In this document: positions 5,929 to 29,515 of the stretch, piece after piece | Position numbering within the stretch: position 1 is the first letter of the stretch | Layout: each line of letters opens with the position of its first letter | Source: a virus | Strand: one strand, 5' to 3' | Length of the DNA stretch: 29,620 nucleotides | IMG/VR virus record: IMGVR_UViG_3300028559_000147 | Span: 1 to 29,620 of that record | Notes under the pieces: generated by a model | Databases searched by the model: none | What the model was told of the DNA's origin: nothing | The model's input: only the letters and a program-made list of their open reading frames with translations | Program-made: the position numbers and the translations under genes

Positions 5929-6684
5929 ATGAAAACATGGAAAACTGATGAATCTGGCGCAATCGTCCTCAAAGACGGCGATCCAGTGTTCATCGATTCA
6001 TCGGGTCGTGAGATGGTCGTTTCGACCGATACGATTACCAAGCTTAACGGTGAAGCGATGGCGCACCGTAAAGAGAAAGAAAGCCTCGAATCAAAGTTGA
6101 AACAATTTGACGGTATTGACCCAGACCTTGCTAGAAAATCAATTGAGATCGCTGGTAAATTGGATGCCAAACAGTTGATCGATGCAGGTAAGGTTGATGA
6201 GCTTAAAAAGCAGATCACTGATCAGTTCAATACGCAGTTGAATGAAAAATCCAATTCACTGAGCCAACTTCAAGCCAAGATTGACGCAATGCAGATCGAT
6301 GGTATCTTCTCGAACAGTGATTTTGTTCGTAATTCGGTGGCAATACCACATGACATCTTCAAGGACAGCTTTAGCAAATACTTCAAGGTTGAAGATGGCC
6401 AGATCGTTGCTTATGATAAGGCGGGTAATCGTCTCTTGAGCAAGATCAAAGCTGGGGAACATGCAACACCTGAAGAGGCGTTCCAAATTCTTGTCGAATC
6501 ACACCCTCAAAAGGATACCTTGGTGCGCGCCGATACCGGAGCTGGCAGTGGCAGCAAGGGAGCAGGTGGCGGTCGCCCCAATCGAGCTATGGGACGTGAT
6601 GAGTTCTCTAAGTTGGCTCCGAACAAACAGGCTGAGATTGCCGCAAAAATTAAAGGCGGTGAAATGTTACCGTTGACTGAGTAA
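5929..6684 (+). CDS. Capsid scaffolding protein
   Basis: The 251-residue product sits between portal and major capsid genes. Residues about 35-125 are highly charged and helical (AHRKEKESLESKLKQF, ELKKQITDQFNTQLNEK), the usual coiled-coil rod of scaffolds. A Gly/Ser linker (GAGSGSKGAGGG) precedes a short basic C-terminal helix (MGRDEFSKLAPNKQAEIAAKIK), the usual coat-binding element. The pattern recalls DUF6651-type phage proteins. It would template procapsid assembly and leave or be degraded before packaging. No protease gene is seen next to it, so release by exit, as in P22, is more likely than cleavage. AAGGAAACTAAA precedes the ATG. It is followed by the first copy of the repeated leader. 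Confidence 0.82.
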   Translation: MKTWKTDESGAIVLKDGDPVFIDSSGREMVVSTDTITKLNGEAMAHRKEKESLESKLKQFDGIDPDLARKSIEIAGKLDAKQLIDAGKVDELKKQITDQFNTQLNEKSNSLSQLQAKIDAMQIDGIFSNSDFVRNSVAIPHDIFKDSFSKYFKVEDGQIVAYDKAGNRLLSKIKAGEHATPEEAFQILVESHPQKDTLVRADTGAGSGSKGAGGGRPNRAMGRDEFSKLAPNKQAEIAAKIKGGEMLPLTE

Positions 6685-6700
6685 TAGAATAATGATACGT

Positions 6701-6792
6701 TACTATCTGCTAATTCTTGGATGAGAAGAAGCGCACCGGCTGGATGGCCCTGAAAAGTCAACAATCGGTGCGTTCTTTTTAATGTTCGCACC
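6701..6792 (+). promoter_or_regulatory. Capsid-gene leader: conserved block plus attenuator-like hairpins
   Basis: Positions 6706-6734 are identical over 29 nt to 11381-11409 upstream of the major tail protein. A TACTAT box (6701-6706) precedes both copies, but here the nearest TTGAC is 22 bp upstream. After the block, GGC-TGGATG-GCC (6738-6749) forms a small hairpin. The arm 6727-6738 pairs with 6766-6776 (11 bp, one bulge) and four T follow, a terminator shape. GGTGCG (6767-6772) can instead pair with CGCACC (6787-6792), giving a mutually exclusive anti-terminator shape. The capsid start codon is at 6815. Confidence 0.65.
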
Positions 6793-6814
6793 TTCAATAT
6801 GAAAGGTTACGAAC

Positions 6815-7969
6815 ATGGCTAATACCCTAACTGGTTTAATCCCCGATCTTTTTGCAGCGGTAGACGTTGTTTCACGCGAAACAGTTGGTTTCATTCCTTC
6901 TGTTACACGTAATGCTTCGGCTGAACGCGCTGCTGTCAACGAATATGTTACCTATCCCGTCGCTCCGTCGCTGGCTTCGGCAAACATTTCTCCTGCAATG
7001 ACTGTTCCTGAACCAACTGATCGCACGATTGGTTATGGTCAGATTGCGATCACCAAGGCTAAATGTGTTGAGTTTGGCTTCGTAGGTGAAGAACAAAAGG
7101 GTTTGAACAACGGTCCAGGCTACCTCACGGTACAAGGCGACCTCATTGCTCAAGCACTTCGCACGCTCACCAATGAAATCGAAGTTGATCTTGCAACGGC
7201 AGCTTATGCTGCTGCTTCTCGCGCATACGGTACGGCTGCAACCACCCCGTTCGGTACGAACACTGGTGAAGCTGCTCAAATGCGTAAGATTTTGACAGAC
7301 AACGGCGCACCCCCAAGCGAACGCTCACTCATCATCGATACCGCTGCTGGTGCATCATTGCGTACCCTGACCCAATTGACCAAGGTCAATGAAGCAGGTA
7401 CAGCGATGACACTGCGTGACGGTGAGTTGTTGAACTTGAGTGGTTTCTCGATCAAGGAATCTGCTGGTATCCAAACCCACACCAAGGGTACTGCGGCTTC
7501 TGCAACCACCAATAACGCTGGTTATGCTGTTGGAGCAACGACCATTACCTTGGCTTCTGCTGGTACAGGTACGATCTTGGCTAACGATCTGATAACCTTT
7601 GCTGGTGACACTAACATCTACCAAGTTGTAACGGGTGATGCTGACGTTTCTGGAGGCGGTACAGTTGTTCTGGCTGCTCCTGGTCTGCGTAAAGCATTGG
7701 CAGCTTCCACCGTAGCGATTACGGTTGTTGGTAGTGCTACTCGCAACATTGCATTCTCCAAGGATGCTTTGCACTTGGTTGCTCGTGCTCCTGCTCTTCC
7801 ACAAGAAGGCGATAACGCAATGGACAGCATGATGATCACTGATCCTCGTTCTGGCTTGACCTATGAAGTTCGGATGTACGGTGGATACCGTAAGATTCGC
7901 TACGAAGTAGGCTTGGCATGGGGCGTTAAAGCTGTTAAAACGAACCACATTGCTACCCTCCTCGGCTAA
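6815..7969 (+). CDS. Major capsid protein (P22 coat-like, HK97 fold)
   Basis: The 384-residue product starts MANTLTGLIPDLFAAVDVVSRETVGFIPSV and follows the scaffold gene. It resembles the P22 coat family: an N-terminal arm, NEIEVDLATAAYAAASRAYGT in the spine-helix region, a serine/threonine-rich inserted domain at about residues 235-310 (TTITLASAGTGTILANDL...), and a family-typical end (NIAFSKDALHLVARAPALP, GLTYEVRMYGGYRKIRYEVGLAWGVKAV). It should build the icosahedral shell. GAAAGG lies about 10 nt before the ATG at 6815. It is isolated from neighbours by an upstream leader with a terminator-like stem and by a strong terminator at 7978-8012, so its mRNA level may be set separately. Confidence 0.92.
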   Translation: MANTLTGLIPDLFAAVDVVSRETVGFIPSVTRNASAERAAVNEYVTYPVAPSLASANISPAMTVPEPTDRTIGYGQIAITKAKCVEFGFVGEEQKGLNNGPGYLTVQGDLIAQALRTLTNEIEVDLATAAYAAASRAYGTAATTPFGTNTGEAAQMRKILTDNGAPPSERSLIIDTAAGASLRTLTQLTKVNEAGTAMTLRDGELLNLSGFSIKESAGIQTHTKGTAASATTNNAGYAVGATTITLASAGTGTILANDLITFAGDTNIYQVVTGDADVSGGGTVVLAAPGLRKALAASTVAITVVGSATRNIAFSKDALHLVARAPALPQEGDNAMDSMMITDPRSGLTYEVRMYGGYRKIRYEVGLAWGVKAVKTNHIATLLG

Positions 7970-7977
7970 TCGACTGA

Positions 7978-8012
7978 AACAGGCGGGGCGAAAACCCCGC
8001 CTGTTCTTTCTT
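7978..8012 (+). terminator. Rho-independent terminator after the capsid gene
   Basis: A perfect 11-bp stem (7978-7988 with 7995-8005; arm AACAGGCGGGG) closes a CGAAAA loop and is followed by CTTTCTT. It lies 8 nt behind the capsid stop codon and inside the late operon, so it probably reduces rather than blocks expression of the connector and tail genes. Confidence 0.88.
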
Positions 8013-11003: not shown

Positions 11004-11351
11004 ATGTCCGATTATGATATGACCATTAAACAAGGCGCGACTTTTACAAGGGTTATAACTTGGTATCAATCAGACGGTACGACACCGAATGACCTGACCG
11101 GTTATACCGCTAAAATGCACCTTAAGCGTAAATACACTGACGAAACGGAAGAGTTTGCTCTAACGACTGAGAACGGTCGGATTACTCTTGGTGGTACGGC
11201 TGGCACTGTGACTCTGAGCATCCCCGCGACCAACACGGATGATTTGAACGGGAAGTATCGTTATGAACTCAAATTGATTAGCGGGTCTTATGTTAAGAGT
11301 TTAATCGAGGGTGAGATCACGATCAGCCCAGAGATCACCAAACTGACTTGA
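11004..11351 (+). CDS. Small beta-rich tail protein of unknown function
   Basis: The 115-residue protein begins MSDYDMTIKQGATFTRVITWY and contains DLTGYTAKMHLK, NGRITLGGTAGTVTLSIPA and YRYELKLISG. This is a widespread phage beta-sandwich family, similar in outline to the N-terminal domain of BppU-type upper baseplate proteins. Members are frequent between tail terminator and major tail protein genes. It is most likely a minor tail-tube or neck decoration. AGGAGG lies about 7 nt before the ATG. The gene ends in TGA inside the -35 box of the promoter proposed at 11348-11376. Confidence 0.65.
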   Translation: MSDYDMTIKQGATFTRVITWYQSDGTTPNDLTGYTAKMHLKRKYTDETEEFALTTENGRITLGGTAGTVTLSIPATNTDDLNGKYRYELKLISGSYVKSLIEGEITISPEITKLT

Positions 11352-11376
11352 CAATGAGATGTGATTTAAATACTAT
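11348..11376 (+). promoter_or_regulatory. Internal promoter for the major tail protein
   Basis: TTGACA (11348-11353) and TACTAT (11371-11376) are 17 bp apart, six and five of six consensus matches. Transcription would start at about 11383, inside the conserved leader block, giving the tail protein mRNA a leader of about 75 nt. Confidence 0.6.
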
Positions 11377-11380
11377 GTAG

Positions 11381-11456
11381 TCTGCTAATTCTTGGATGAG
11401 AAGAAGCGCGCCGGTCGGATGACCTCGATTTAACTTTTGAAAAAGGGCTTCTCATC
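11381..11456 (+). promoter_or_regulatory. Major tail protein leader: second copy of repeated element
   Basis: The 29 nt at 11381-11409 are identical to 6706-6734. They are followed by GGT-CGGATG-ACC (11413-11424), the counterpart of GGC-TGGATG-GCC in the capsid leader, so one base pair changed from C-G to T-A while the pairing was kept. GATGAGAAG (11395-11403), inside the conserved block, is the exact complement of CTTCTCATC (11448-11456), which lies between the AAGGG ribosome binding site and the ATG at 11457. That 9-bp pairing would hide the translation start. Confidence 0.65.
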
Positions 11457-12206
11457 ATGGCGAATACAAACGCAGCATCAAAAATTTATATCTGCGCTAC
11501 AGCGCAAAACAGTGAACTTGACCAAACCGGATATGAAGCCCTGACGTGGGTAGAAATTACGGGTATTGGTCGTCGCGGTGAAATTGGTAAAAACACCAAC
11601 ATCGTGAATTACAATACTTGGGACACTAATGTAATTCAAAAAGCTAAGGGTATGACTGACGCAGGTTCACCTGAGCTTGAAGTTGCACGTTCGGCTACCG
11701 ATGCAGGTCAAATCCTTCTCCGCACTGCTGCTGCTGTTGGACATAATAGTAATTATGCTTTCAAAGAAGTGCGCGCTGACGGTGTATCCGGTGCAACTGG
11801 CACCGTGATTTACAATCGCGGCCTTGTAGTTGGCCCAAAGCGTCCAGGCGGCGGTAATGAAGACTTTGATCTTGAAATCTTCATGTTGGCATTTCAACAA
11901 GAAGAAATTGTAGTAGCTCCAAGTTCTGCTGGTACTGCACCATACGTTACCGCTGTTCCAACGATCAGTGGTACGGCTACGGTCGGTCAAACGCTCACCG
12001 GCGCAAACGGTACATGGGCTGGCGACGCAACAATCACTTACGCTTACCAATGGTACGCAAACAACATCGCAATCTCTGGCGCGACCTCCGGCACTTACGT
12101 GCTTCTGGCTGCTCAGAGCGGCAAACGCATCACTCTGCGCGTAACGGCAAGCAACGCTTCCGGTAACGCAAGTGCAACCACATCTCCAACATCGGCAGTC
12201 GCTTAA
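11457..12206 (+). CDS. Major tail protein with C-terminal Ig-like domain
   Basis: The 249-residue protein has an N-terminal tube domain (residues about 1-155: MANTNAASKIYICATAQNSE, WVEITGIGRRGEIGKNTNIVNY, GPKRPGGGNEDFDLEIFMLAF) followed by a linker and an Ig-like domain (about 160-249: VPTISGTATVGQTLTGANG, ITYAYQWYANN, GKRITLRVTASNASG). Lambda gpV has the same plan, with a surface Ig domain on each tube subunit. It should polymerise around the tape measure. It is preceded by its own promoter and the repeated leader and followed by the chaperone genes with a 1-nt overlap. Confidence 0.85.
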   Translation: MANTNAASKIYICATAQNSELDQTGYEALTWVEITGIGRRGEIGKNTNIVNYNTWDTNVIQKAKGMTDAGSPELEVARSATDAGQILLRTAAAVGHNSNYAFKEVRADGVSGATGTVIYNRGLVVGPKRPGGGNEDFDLEIFMLAFQQEEIVVAPSSAGTAPYVTAVPTISGTATVGQTLTGANGTWAGDATITYAYQWYANNIAISGATSGTYVLLAAQSGKRITLRVTASNASGNASATTSPTSAVA

Positions 12207-12583
12207 TGGAAATCCTAGAAATAAAAGCTAACGAACGTGTCATCGAGATAATGCACCCTAAGACTGATGAACCCATTGGTCTTAAGGTGTACCTCGTTTC
12301 TTTTGATGATGAAAAAGTCAAAAAGGTTCGTCGCAAATTTTTGGATGAAAAGTTGCGTTTAGAAGCGCGCAACAAGCACTTCAATGCGGAAGAGATTGAA
12401 GAAAACAATCTCGCTATGATGTTCGCTGCAATGACCGGCTGGGAGTGGAGCAATGACCTCACTCTCGATGGTGATAAGCAACCAGCGTTCAATCAGAAGA
12501 ACGTCTATACGGTTCTCAAGAAGATTCCTTTCGTCGCCTCTCAGATTGAGAAAGAGGTTGTAGATGAAAAGGCTTTTTTTTAA
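12206..12583 (+). CDS. Tail assembly chaperone, short form (gpG-like)
   Basis: The 125-residue acidic protein (MEILEIKANERVIEIMHP...) lies between major tail protein and tape measure genes, the position of tail chaperones. Its last codons are GCT TTT TTT TAA, ending on a run of eight T. A -1 slip there fuses it to the frame 12580-12990, as gpG and gpGT do in lambda. The short form should bind the tape measure during tail assembly and is absent from the virion. It overlaps the tail protein stop by 1 nt (TAATG). Confidence 0.85.
   Translation: MEILEIKANERVIEIMHPKTDEPIGLKVYLVSFDDEKVKKVRRKFLDEKLRLEARNKHFNAEEIEENNLAMMFAAMTGWEWSNDLTLDGDKQPAFNQKNVYTVLKKIPFVASQIEKEVVDEKAFF
12574..12580 (+). promoter_or_regulatory. 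-1 ribosomal frameshift site (T7 heptamer)
   Basis: The heptamer TTTTTTT has the canonical X XXY YYZ spacing in the zero frame (GC T TTT TTT, stop TAA at 12581-12583). A perfect 6-bp hairpin CCGTGT-TTTC-ACACGG follows at 12612-12627, about 31 nt downstream, which is farther than typical stimulators. The downstream frame is open immediately after the slip and has no good start codon of its own. Confidence 0.85.
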
Positions 12584-28716: not shown

Positions 28717-28889
28717 GGGATTTCCTTATCTGCATATAGAATGCCCGATGTTACACCCCATTTTGAGGGCTCATAACGTTGCCTGTAAATACGTCCGTCC
28801 GCGCTAACTATTACCTTTATATTTTCAGCGGATAAAATCTGCGATGGTGTATGGTTTACAATGTAATAGTTAAACTCAGTAGCAATCAT
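28713..28889 (-). CDS. Small hypothetical protein (58 aa)
   Basis: ATG 28889 overlaps the stop of the hexapeptide-repeat gene by 4 nt, with AAGGAG about 8 nt upstream. The frame runs 58 codons to TGA at 28713, overlapping the next ATG by 4 nt. The product (MIATEFNYYIVNHTPSQILS, ADGRIYRQRYEPSKWG, ending ADKEIP) is mixed alpha/beta and soluble. Overlaps on both sides and a good ribosome binding site make it likely real. No family is recognised. Confidence 0.65.
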   Translation of the reverse strand: MIATEFNYYIVNHTPSQILSAENIKVIVSADGRIYRQRYEPSKWGVTSGILYADKEIP

Positions 28890-29515
28890 TCCCGTTTCTC
28901 CTTCTCCAAGCGTTGCGCGATTTTCTTTAAAAGATTGATTGCATCGTGGTAAAGGCTTTCCTTGCCGTATTTTTCTTCAATTGCAATTAATATTTTTTCT
29001 TCATCGCCAAATCTGCACCCAATCTGAAAACGATAAACATCATCTTCACCATGCCAACAGGATATACCGCCAGAATATCCAATTGAATGGCATTGAATTA
29101 TTCTGTTATTCTTAAATTTAAATCCGCCAAAGCTGCACCCCTCGCCAAAGCTGCACCACTCGCCAAAGTTGCATCCCTCGCCAAAGCTGCATCCCTTGCC
29201 AAATCTGTACCGCTTGCCAAAGCTGCACTGCTCGCCAAAGCTGCATTCCTTGCCAAAGCTGCACCACTCGCCAAAGCTGCACCGCTCGCCAAAGCTGCAC
29301 CGCTCGCCAAAGTTGCATGCCTCGCCAAAGCTGCACCACTCGCCAAAGTTGCATCCCTCGCCAAAGCTGCATCCCTTGCCAAAGTTGCACCACTCGCCAA
29401 AGCTGCACCACTCGCCAAAGCTTTCTATATTTGAATAATCAGTAAGGGCTGGGCAAAGCGTAATCCCATCCACCACAGGAAGATTATCAAACTCTTGTTG
29501 TGTGATTGTGTTCAT
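28886..29515 (-). CDS. Hexapeptide-repeat protein (CSFGEx repeats)
   Basis: The 209-residue protein has a short start (MNTITQQEFDNLPVVDGITL), then 17 consecutive six-residue units at about 32-131 with consensus C-S/N-F-G-E/K-x (for example CSFGEWCNFGKG). A C-terminal domain (about 137-209: IIQCHSIGYSGGISCWHGED, EEKILIAIEEKYGKESLY) ends in a basic helix. The strict six-residue period suggests a left-handed beta helix with three units per turn, about 5-6 turns, with stacked Cys and Phe. Similar CSFG-repeat proteins occur in other phages; their function is not known to me. The ATG overlaps the stop of an almost identical upstream gene end. Confidence 0.75.
   Translation of the reverse strand: MNTITQQEFDNLPVVDGITLCPALTDYSNIESFGEWCSFGEWCNFGKGCSFGEGCNFGEWCSFGEACNFGERCSFGERCSFGEWCSFGKECSFGEQCSFGKRYRFGKGCSFGEGCNFGEWCSFGEGCSFGGFKFKNNRIIQCHSIGYSGGISCWHGEDDVYRFQIGCRFGDEEKILIAIEEKYGKESLYHDAINLLKKIAQRLEKEKRE
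28900..28997. repeat. 98-bp direct repeat, copy 1
   Basis: Positions 28900-28997 are identical base for base to 29523-29620. It covers the C-terminal coding part of the hexapeptide-repeat gene; copy 2 covers the same part of the preceding gene. The repeat continues beyond the window on the copy 2 side, so its true length is unknown. Confidence 0.9.
29126..29419. repeat. 18-bp tandem coding repeat (17 units)
   Basis: Seventeen starts of an 18-bp unit, GCCAAAGCTGCACCACTC or a close variant, occur without spacer. Units 2-4 are identical to units 12-14, a 54-bp segmental copy within the array. The units encode the six-residue repeats on the minus strand. The absence of spacers and the open frame exclude a CRISPR array. 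Confidence 0.92.

Follow-up and report, generated by a model that had tools for sequence, protein, structure and literature searches.

The repeated block and its genes

The stretch of viral DNA analysed here in its entirety, and referred to as the window, is a 29,620-base phage fragment from IMG/VR, and a search of the phage collection gave no close DNA relatives. A 29-nt block stands in it twice, letter for letter, as the initial annotation had noticed, at 6706-6734 and at 11381-11409; the 29,620 bases contain no third copy, and none would be expected by chance. The two copies precede genes for virion proteins, as had also been claimed, and these belong to a capsid family and a tail family (phrog_283 and phrog_158, respectively). 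The genes and blocks concerned are:

5929..6684, + strand: scaffold protein gene (DUF6651, phrog_784)
6706..6734, + strand: 29-nt block, copy 1, in the capsid leader
6815..7969, + strand: major capsid protein gene (P22-coat type, phrog_283)
11381..11409, + strand: 29-nt block, copy 2, in the tail leader
11457..12206, + strand: major tail protein gene (phrog_158)

On the evidence of sequence, the block is one half of a cis-acting RNA element made of two hairpins tipped with GGAU. The first of these (HP1) lies inside the block and has the same GGAU tip as the second (HP2), a point that the initial annotation overlooked. The change from GGC/GCC to GGT/ACC that it reported belongs to HP2 and is confirmed (6738-6740/6747-6749 in the capsid leader; 11413-11415/11422-11424 in the tail leader). 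The scaffold gene of the window starts 10 nt after the portal gene and lacks the element. Far from these genes, at 28886-29515 on the - strand, there is a reading frame for a highly repetitive protein (CSFGEW/CNFGE repeats).

Structure and covariation of the RNA family

A covariance model of the element, designated R1, was built from 15 copies, in which covariation was already to be seen. The two copies in the window are among its training sequences, so their own R1 scores, included in the following list, are not independent:

6713..6751, + strand: tandem GGAU-hairpin element, copy 1 (R1, 50 bits, E 8.4e-9)
6714..6727, + strand: HP1 of copy 1, TTCTT-GGAT-GAGAA (arms 6714-6718/6723-6727)
6738..6749, + strand: HP2 of copy 1, GGC-T-GGAT-G-GCC
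6709..6732, + strand: lower stem P1, GCT 6709-6711 with AGC 6730-6732
11388..11426, + strand: tandem GGAU-hairpin element, copy 2 (HP1 11389-11402, HP2 11413-11424; 48.7 bits)

Searching with R1 retrieved further copies in diverged relatives. A covariance-model search for copies with compensatory changes had been set beforehand as a test by which the idea might be refuted; the relatives do have them. The family that emerges consists of two hairpins, each with the tip Y-GGAU-G, joined by a (G)GCGC linker. Among 70 non-redundant elements, the tip-to-tip spacing is 19-28 nt (mode 23-24), a pyrimidine precedes the GGA at -1 in 138 of 140 tips, and U is the fourth loop base in 134 of 140. The lower stem below HP1, GCY/RGC, can be formed in 45 of the 70 (shuffled mean 29.8, maximum 39). 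Pairs of Y-GGAU-G hairpins with quite different stems are found in viral contigs just upstream of the genes of capsid homologues. Four-base loops closed by Y-G in these loci are GGAT 62 times on the coding strand versus 4 times on the opposite strand, the next most frequent loop being found 27 times.

The alignment of 72 sequences was fitted to the model structure, which favours its pairing counts: 92.7% of paired cells versus 62.4% on shuffling, and 236 double-sided changes versus 73, distributed over 10 of 10 pairs. The covariation score for these sequences is 0.854 versus 0.270 shuffled, and at most 0.191 when the structure is slid along the alignment. A consensus predicted afresh on the same 72 sequences consists of the same two hairpins. 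Mimicry of the 16S RNA 3' end (GGUUGGAUCACCUCC) was rejected as an explanation, since the stems are free to vary while their pairing is maintained.

The first reading of the DNA had recognised no described RNA family, and Rfam agrees: neither the window nor any of nine relatives yields a match above the gathering cut-off, the best sub-threshold match being potC (15.6 bits, other strand). No earlier description of the element or of its mechanism was found in the literature searched, which included few subscription journals. The element is thus new to Rfam and to that literature. The window also holds a weak partial R1 match (12337-12361, 16.5 bits, AAATTTTTGGATGAAAAGTT) within a reading frame past the tail gene, which is probably due to chance.

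Distribution

In relatives, the element is found before the same class of genes. Of the 73 R1 matches examined, some of them from close relatives, 72 have a scaffold (36), capsid (33) or major tail (3) gene downstream, making the scaffold gene the commonest client; all 73 lie on the coding strand. The odd one out (L081, 803-842) precedes a putative phage metallopeptidase (PF18894). A second R1 match in the phage behind locus L009 also precedes a tail gene. Two scans of 2.9 million viral contigs used the RNA pattern and nothing else: in the first, 5 of 5 loci lie before scaffold or capsid genes of the same group, and in the second, all but two of 80 loci do so. Most of these 80 are near-identical, with the leader found in the Pseudomonas aeruginosa phages D14P and AUS531phi, and therefore represent few independent cases. 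In this P. aeruginosa group the scaffold protein is matched by that of the window and the capsid protein is not, so that, of the two, scaffold is the more constant neighbour in these phages.

Known carriers are the Rhizobium phages P106B and RHph_X2_24, Salicola CGphi29, Caulobacter DMCA, E. coli HK639, Pseudomonas PS-1, D14P, AUS531phi and YMC11/02/R656, Erwinia Gungnir39, Acinetobacter AM106, Klebsiella ST405-OXA48phi1.3 and Synechococcus Ssp-JY42. Prophage sequence of the HK639 type is present in 14 of 5,426 E. coli genomes, with DUF6651 annotated in those listed. The RNA pattern has 12 matches in 257 Gb of bacterial genomes which, judged by their sequence context, look like chance occurrences in coding DNA. 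A host RNA as the source of the element was rejected: 240 alphaproteobacterial genomes gave no DUF6651 and, under stricter filters, no R1 match. This evidence is weak, because of those filters and because nothing at all registered in the search.

Some carriers present a separate peculiarity: their scaffold, capsid and (where seen) tail proteins share an N-terminal extension of 10-30 amino acids that is hydrophobic and resembles a signal peptide (loci L008, L009, L010, L014, L016, L049, L050, L073, L077, L079, L083 and L099). It often ends in A-[YF]-[ADN]-N, as in the tail protein (MKKLLLATSFLANLAAFA followed by NSNAASK), the capsid protein (MRKNILLGGSVLAAPFIGHLSAYASA followed by NTLTG) and the scaffold (MKAHILALLTATAFNNAGWKLD). 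Other carriers, including the window, have the extension on none of the three; it looks to be all-or-none in each phage.

Scaffold leaders: hairpins at the ribosome-binding site

Leaders of 57 non-redundant scaffold genes were fetched by protein homology only. A Y-GGAN-R hairpin is present in 40 of the 57, versus 6.9% of random stretches, and the loops counted in this sample are GGAU (65), GGAA (10) and GGAC (4), with any other at 3 or fewer. The remaining 17 homologues have no such hairpins; several of them have a misassigned start codon. The position of the last hairpin would suit a translational operator: in 35 of 37 scaffold leaders its GGA lies between -8 and -26 relative to the start codon, placing a structured site at the ribosome-binding region. 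In ten leaders, including that of Acinetobacter AM106, the loop GGA at -9 to -14 is itself the sole sequence resembling a Shine-Dalgarno (SD) element; in others, an SD GGAG directly follows the 3' arm of the last hairpin. Complementarity of HP1 to downstream sequence does not rise above permutation in scaffold leaders, and in those examined no terminator follows the element.

The number and tips of the hairpins vary. Many scaffold leaders have one more GGAU hairpin, the third, immediately upstream of the SD (L054, L056, L058, L095, L104, L105, L150, L240 and L241), and in several loci the tip has drifted to GGAA in single or repeated hairpins (L243 and L248, from Mannheimia and Pasteurella phages; L053; L042).

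Capsid and tail leaders: mutually exclusive pairing

In capsid and tail leaders the element lies further upstream of the start codon than it does in scaffold leaders. The relevant segments of the window are:

6673..6678, + strand: -35-like hexamer TTGACT, upstream of copy 1
6726..6782, + strand: terminator-like outer stem, 6726-6738 with 6766-6777, then T-rich
6767..6792, + strand: alternative pairing, GGTGCG 6767-6772 with CGCACC 6787-6792
6782..6816, + strand: hairpin over the capsid ribosome site, ATGTTCG 6782-6788/CGAACAT 6810-6816 plus ACCTT 6790-6794/AAGGT 6803-6807
11348..11376, + strand: sigma70-like promoter, TTGACA-17-TACTAT (10/12 matches)
11395..11456, + strand: anti-ribosome-site helix, GATGAGAAG 11395-11403 with CTTCTCATC 11448-11456, excluding HP1

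The terminator-like stem with its T's and the competing GGTGCG/CGCACC pairing, both proposed at the outset, are there. The outer stem has one bulged G and encloses HP2; its 3' arm can pair instead with the 5' arm of the ribosome-site hairpin. The capsid copy of the window thus has the sequence attributes of a terminator-attenuator: a G+C-rich stem, a U tract and a competing anti-terminator. In the tail copy, the block can form a perfect 9-bp helix with the sequence that abuts the ATG on its 5' side, and no terminator follows the element. This helix had escaped the initial annotation, as had the lower GCT/AGC stem and the hairpin over the capsid ribosome site.

These arrangements are not peculiar to the window. 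The mean energy of the duplex between HP1 and its own downstream sequence is -11.3, versus -9.8 ± 0.43 with the downstream sequences of other phages (p=0.00045); HP2, the control, does not exceed permutation (p=0.64). The effect of HP1 is confined to short leaders (22; p<5e-5); in the 11 long leaders, downstream complementarity belongs to the linker that joins the hairpins (p<5e-5). The window has both kinds, the HP1-type helix in its tail copy and the outer stem in its capsid copy. The proposed mutually exclusive pairing is, as far as comparison of sequences goes, conserved in capsid and tail leaders beyond permutation controls. A terminator-like outer stem is restricted to a subset of capsid leaders whose 3' parts are long; of these, only some have a T-tract. 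The attenuator design originally put forward therefore survives in part: the leaders of virion genes are structured and their alternative pairings conserved, but the central feature is the two GGAU hairpins, and the terminator belongs to a subset.

The promoter-like sequence at 11348..11376 would start RNA at about block copy 2; promoter-like sites across the whole window are no more frequent than chance. No convincing -10 hexamer lies 16-18 nt after TTGACT in the capsid leader, TACTAT (6701-6706) being 22 nt away; many relatives have TTGACN in the same place, with an AT-rich hexamer ~17 nt further on. Just past the capsid gene, at 7978-8005, lies a strong hairpin of 11 bp resembling an intrinsic terminator.

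A proposed two-site switch and its rivals

The interpretation that we consider probable is that the element offers two docking sites to a trans-acting RNA-binding protein that would tune translation of scaffold, capsid and tail-tube mRNAs, scaffold down and capsid and tail up. Binding of a protein, the sign of its control and its identity are all matters that we infer. The putative protein, probably with two binding faces, would dock on both GGAU hairpins. In a scaffold leader, where the last hairpin covers or contains the SD, bound protein would block the ribosome (OFF). In capsid and tail leaders not occupied by the factor, HP1 could pair downstream if the leader is short and the linker if it is long, closing the ribosome site or forming the terminator-like stem; with the factor present, HP1 and the linker would be held, leaving the capsid or tail ribosome site free (ON). 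Since holding the hairpins and the linker would free the ribosome site in both kinds of leader, repression of scaffold and activation of capsid and tail could come from a single factor. These opposite signs are read from the anatomy of the leaders. Repression of this kind would not extend to every carrier, given that the scaffold gene of the window lacks the element.

The factor may be encoded by the phage and would most simply be the scaffold protein itself, a candidacy that we rate somewhat short of an even chance. It is a lead resting on neighbourhood, the DUF6651 scaffold being the phage protein that most consistently adjoins the element, and on the precedent of P22, whose scaffold limits its own synthesis post-transcriptionally; to our knowledge, the molecular basis of that autoregulation is not settled. 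Structure prediction for the scaffold gives one long helix, a small beta part at the N-terminus and two paired helices at the C-terminus, and the PDB provides no informative match to it. The fuller version, in which free DUF6651, by binding the tandem GGAU hairpins, would halt its own translation and open that of the capsid and tail-tube mRNAs, so keeping the assembly proteins in proportion, is offered as a tentative and rather unlikely elaboration. A host protein of the CsrA/RsmA family is a less likely candidate for the factor than a phage protein, and another host or phage factor accounts for the remaining probability.

With host CsrA/RsmA as the factor, the reading would be this: recruited by tandem GGA hairpins, the host regulator would make the late structural genes follow host physiology. 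GGA loops at two sites ~23 nt apart, one of them over the SD, are the usual plan of a CsrA target, the GGA is exposed in a hairpin loop in 140 of 140 tips of the 70 elements (as the way of selecting elements ensures), and many carrier hosts are gammaproteobacteria. The details fit less well. CsrA prefers ANGGA (PMC7366521) and binds with highest affinity to an ANGGAX hexaloop (PMC4005645), whereas only 6 of 140 sites have A at -2, and a Y-R pair closes the tip. CsrA was found in 48 of a sample of 240 alphaproteobacterial genomes, though Rhizobium and Caulobacter phages carry the element, and none is encoded in 13 carrier phage records. We regard this reading as unlikely. A classical transcription attenuator, with termination as the main output, would explain the capsid leader of the window, with its outer stem, U tract and competing anti-terminator, and the conservation of the outer stem in long capsid leaders; it is improbable, in that most elements, the tail copy and the examined scaffold leaders included, have no terminator downstream and overlap ribosome sites instead, and terminator-like matches across the window are no more frequent than chance.

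Two further explanations were weighed. If tandem GGA hairpins raised translation of the most abundant virion proteins, as standby sites for ribosomes or as exposed SDs, no trans factor would be called for, and the ten scaffold leaders in which a loop GGA is the only candidate SD would find a ready explanation. The near-invariant U, the Y-R closure and the narrow spacing would be left unaccounted for, as would an element 60-100 nt upstream in capsid leaders that have an SD of their own; this notion is, if anything, slightly less probable than attenuation. A conserved loop in structural-gene leaders could, finally, be the cleavage signal of a phage or host endoribonuclease that processes late mRNA. 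GGAG is such a signal for T4 RegB; the tip here is GGAU, not GGAG, and processing is the least credible of these explanations.

Significance

A strongly covarying, previously undescribed element before the scaffold, capsid and tail genes of widespread phages and prophages suggests that double-stranded DNA phages have post-transcriptional control dedicated to virion assembly. The matching of scaffold synthesis to capsid assembly, an old question, becomes directly testable in E. coli with HK639, and the element provides a marker RNA for annotating scaffold genes, which are now mostly labelled hypothetical or DUF6651. If the scaffold switch is real, one RNA signal would have opposite outputs at different genes in phages of many proteobacterial hosts.

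Comparison with known systems

CsrA/RsmA-controlled leaders and sRNAs of the CsrB/RsmZ type resemble the element in their GGA loops, in sites 20-odd nt apart and in the frequent location of one site on the SD. Unlike CsrA/RsmA targets, the element has a Y-R-closed GGAU tetraloop without the A of ANGGA and stands only before phage structural genes, with 0 matches in 240 alphaproteobacterial genomes. The coat-protein translational operator of RNA phages (MS2 type) likewise places a hairpin where ribosomes load on a gene linked to assembly, an arrangement that lends itself to repression by a protein of the assembly pathway; the element differs in belonging to double-stranded DNA phages, in its tandem hairpins and in serving several genes per phage. 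P22 shares control of scaffold after transcription and the P22-type coat. Its gene 8 begins 14 nt past the portal gene and lacks such a leader; an element there was considered and rejected, the leader being too short to hold one. The long capsid leaders, in which pairings A:B and C:D compete with B:C, are built like the four-segment attenuators of amino-acid operons; they differ from these in having no known leader peptide and in the site of the proposed factor, which would lie over segment A.
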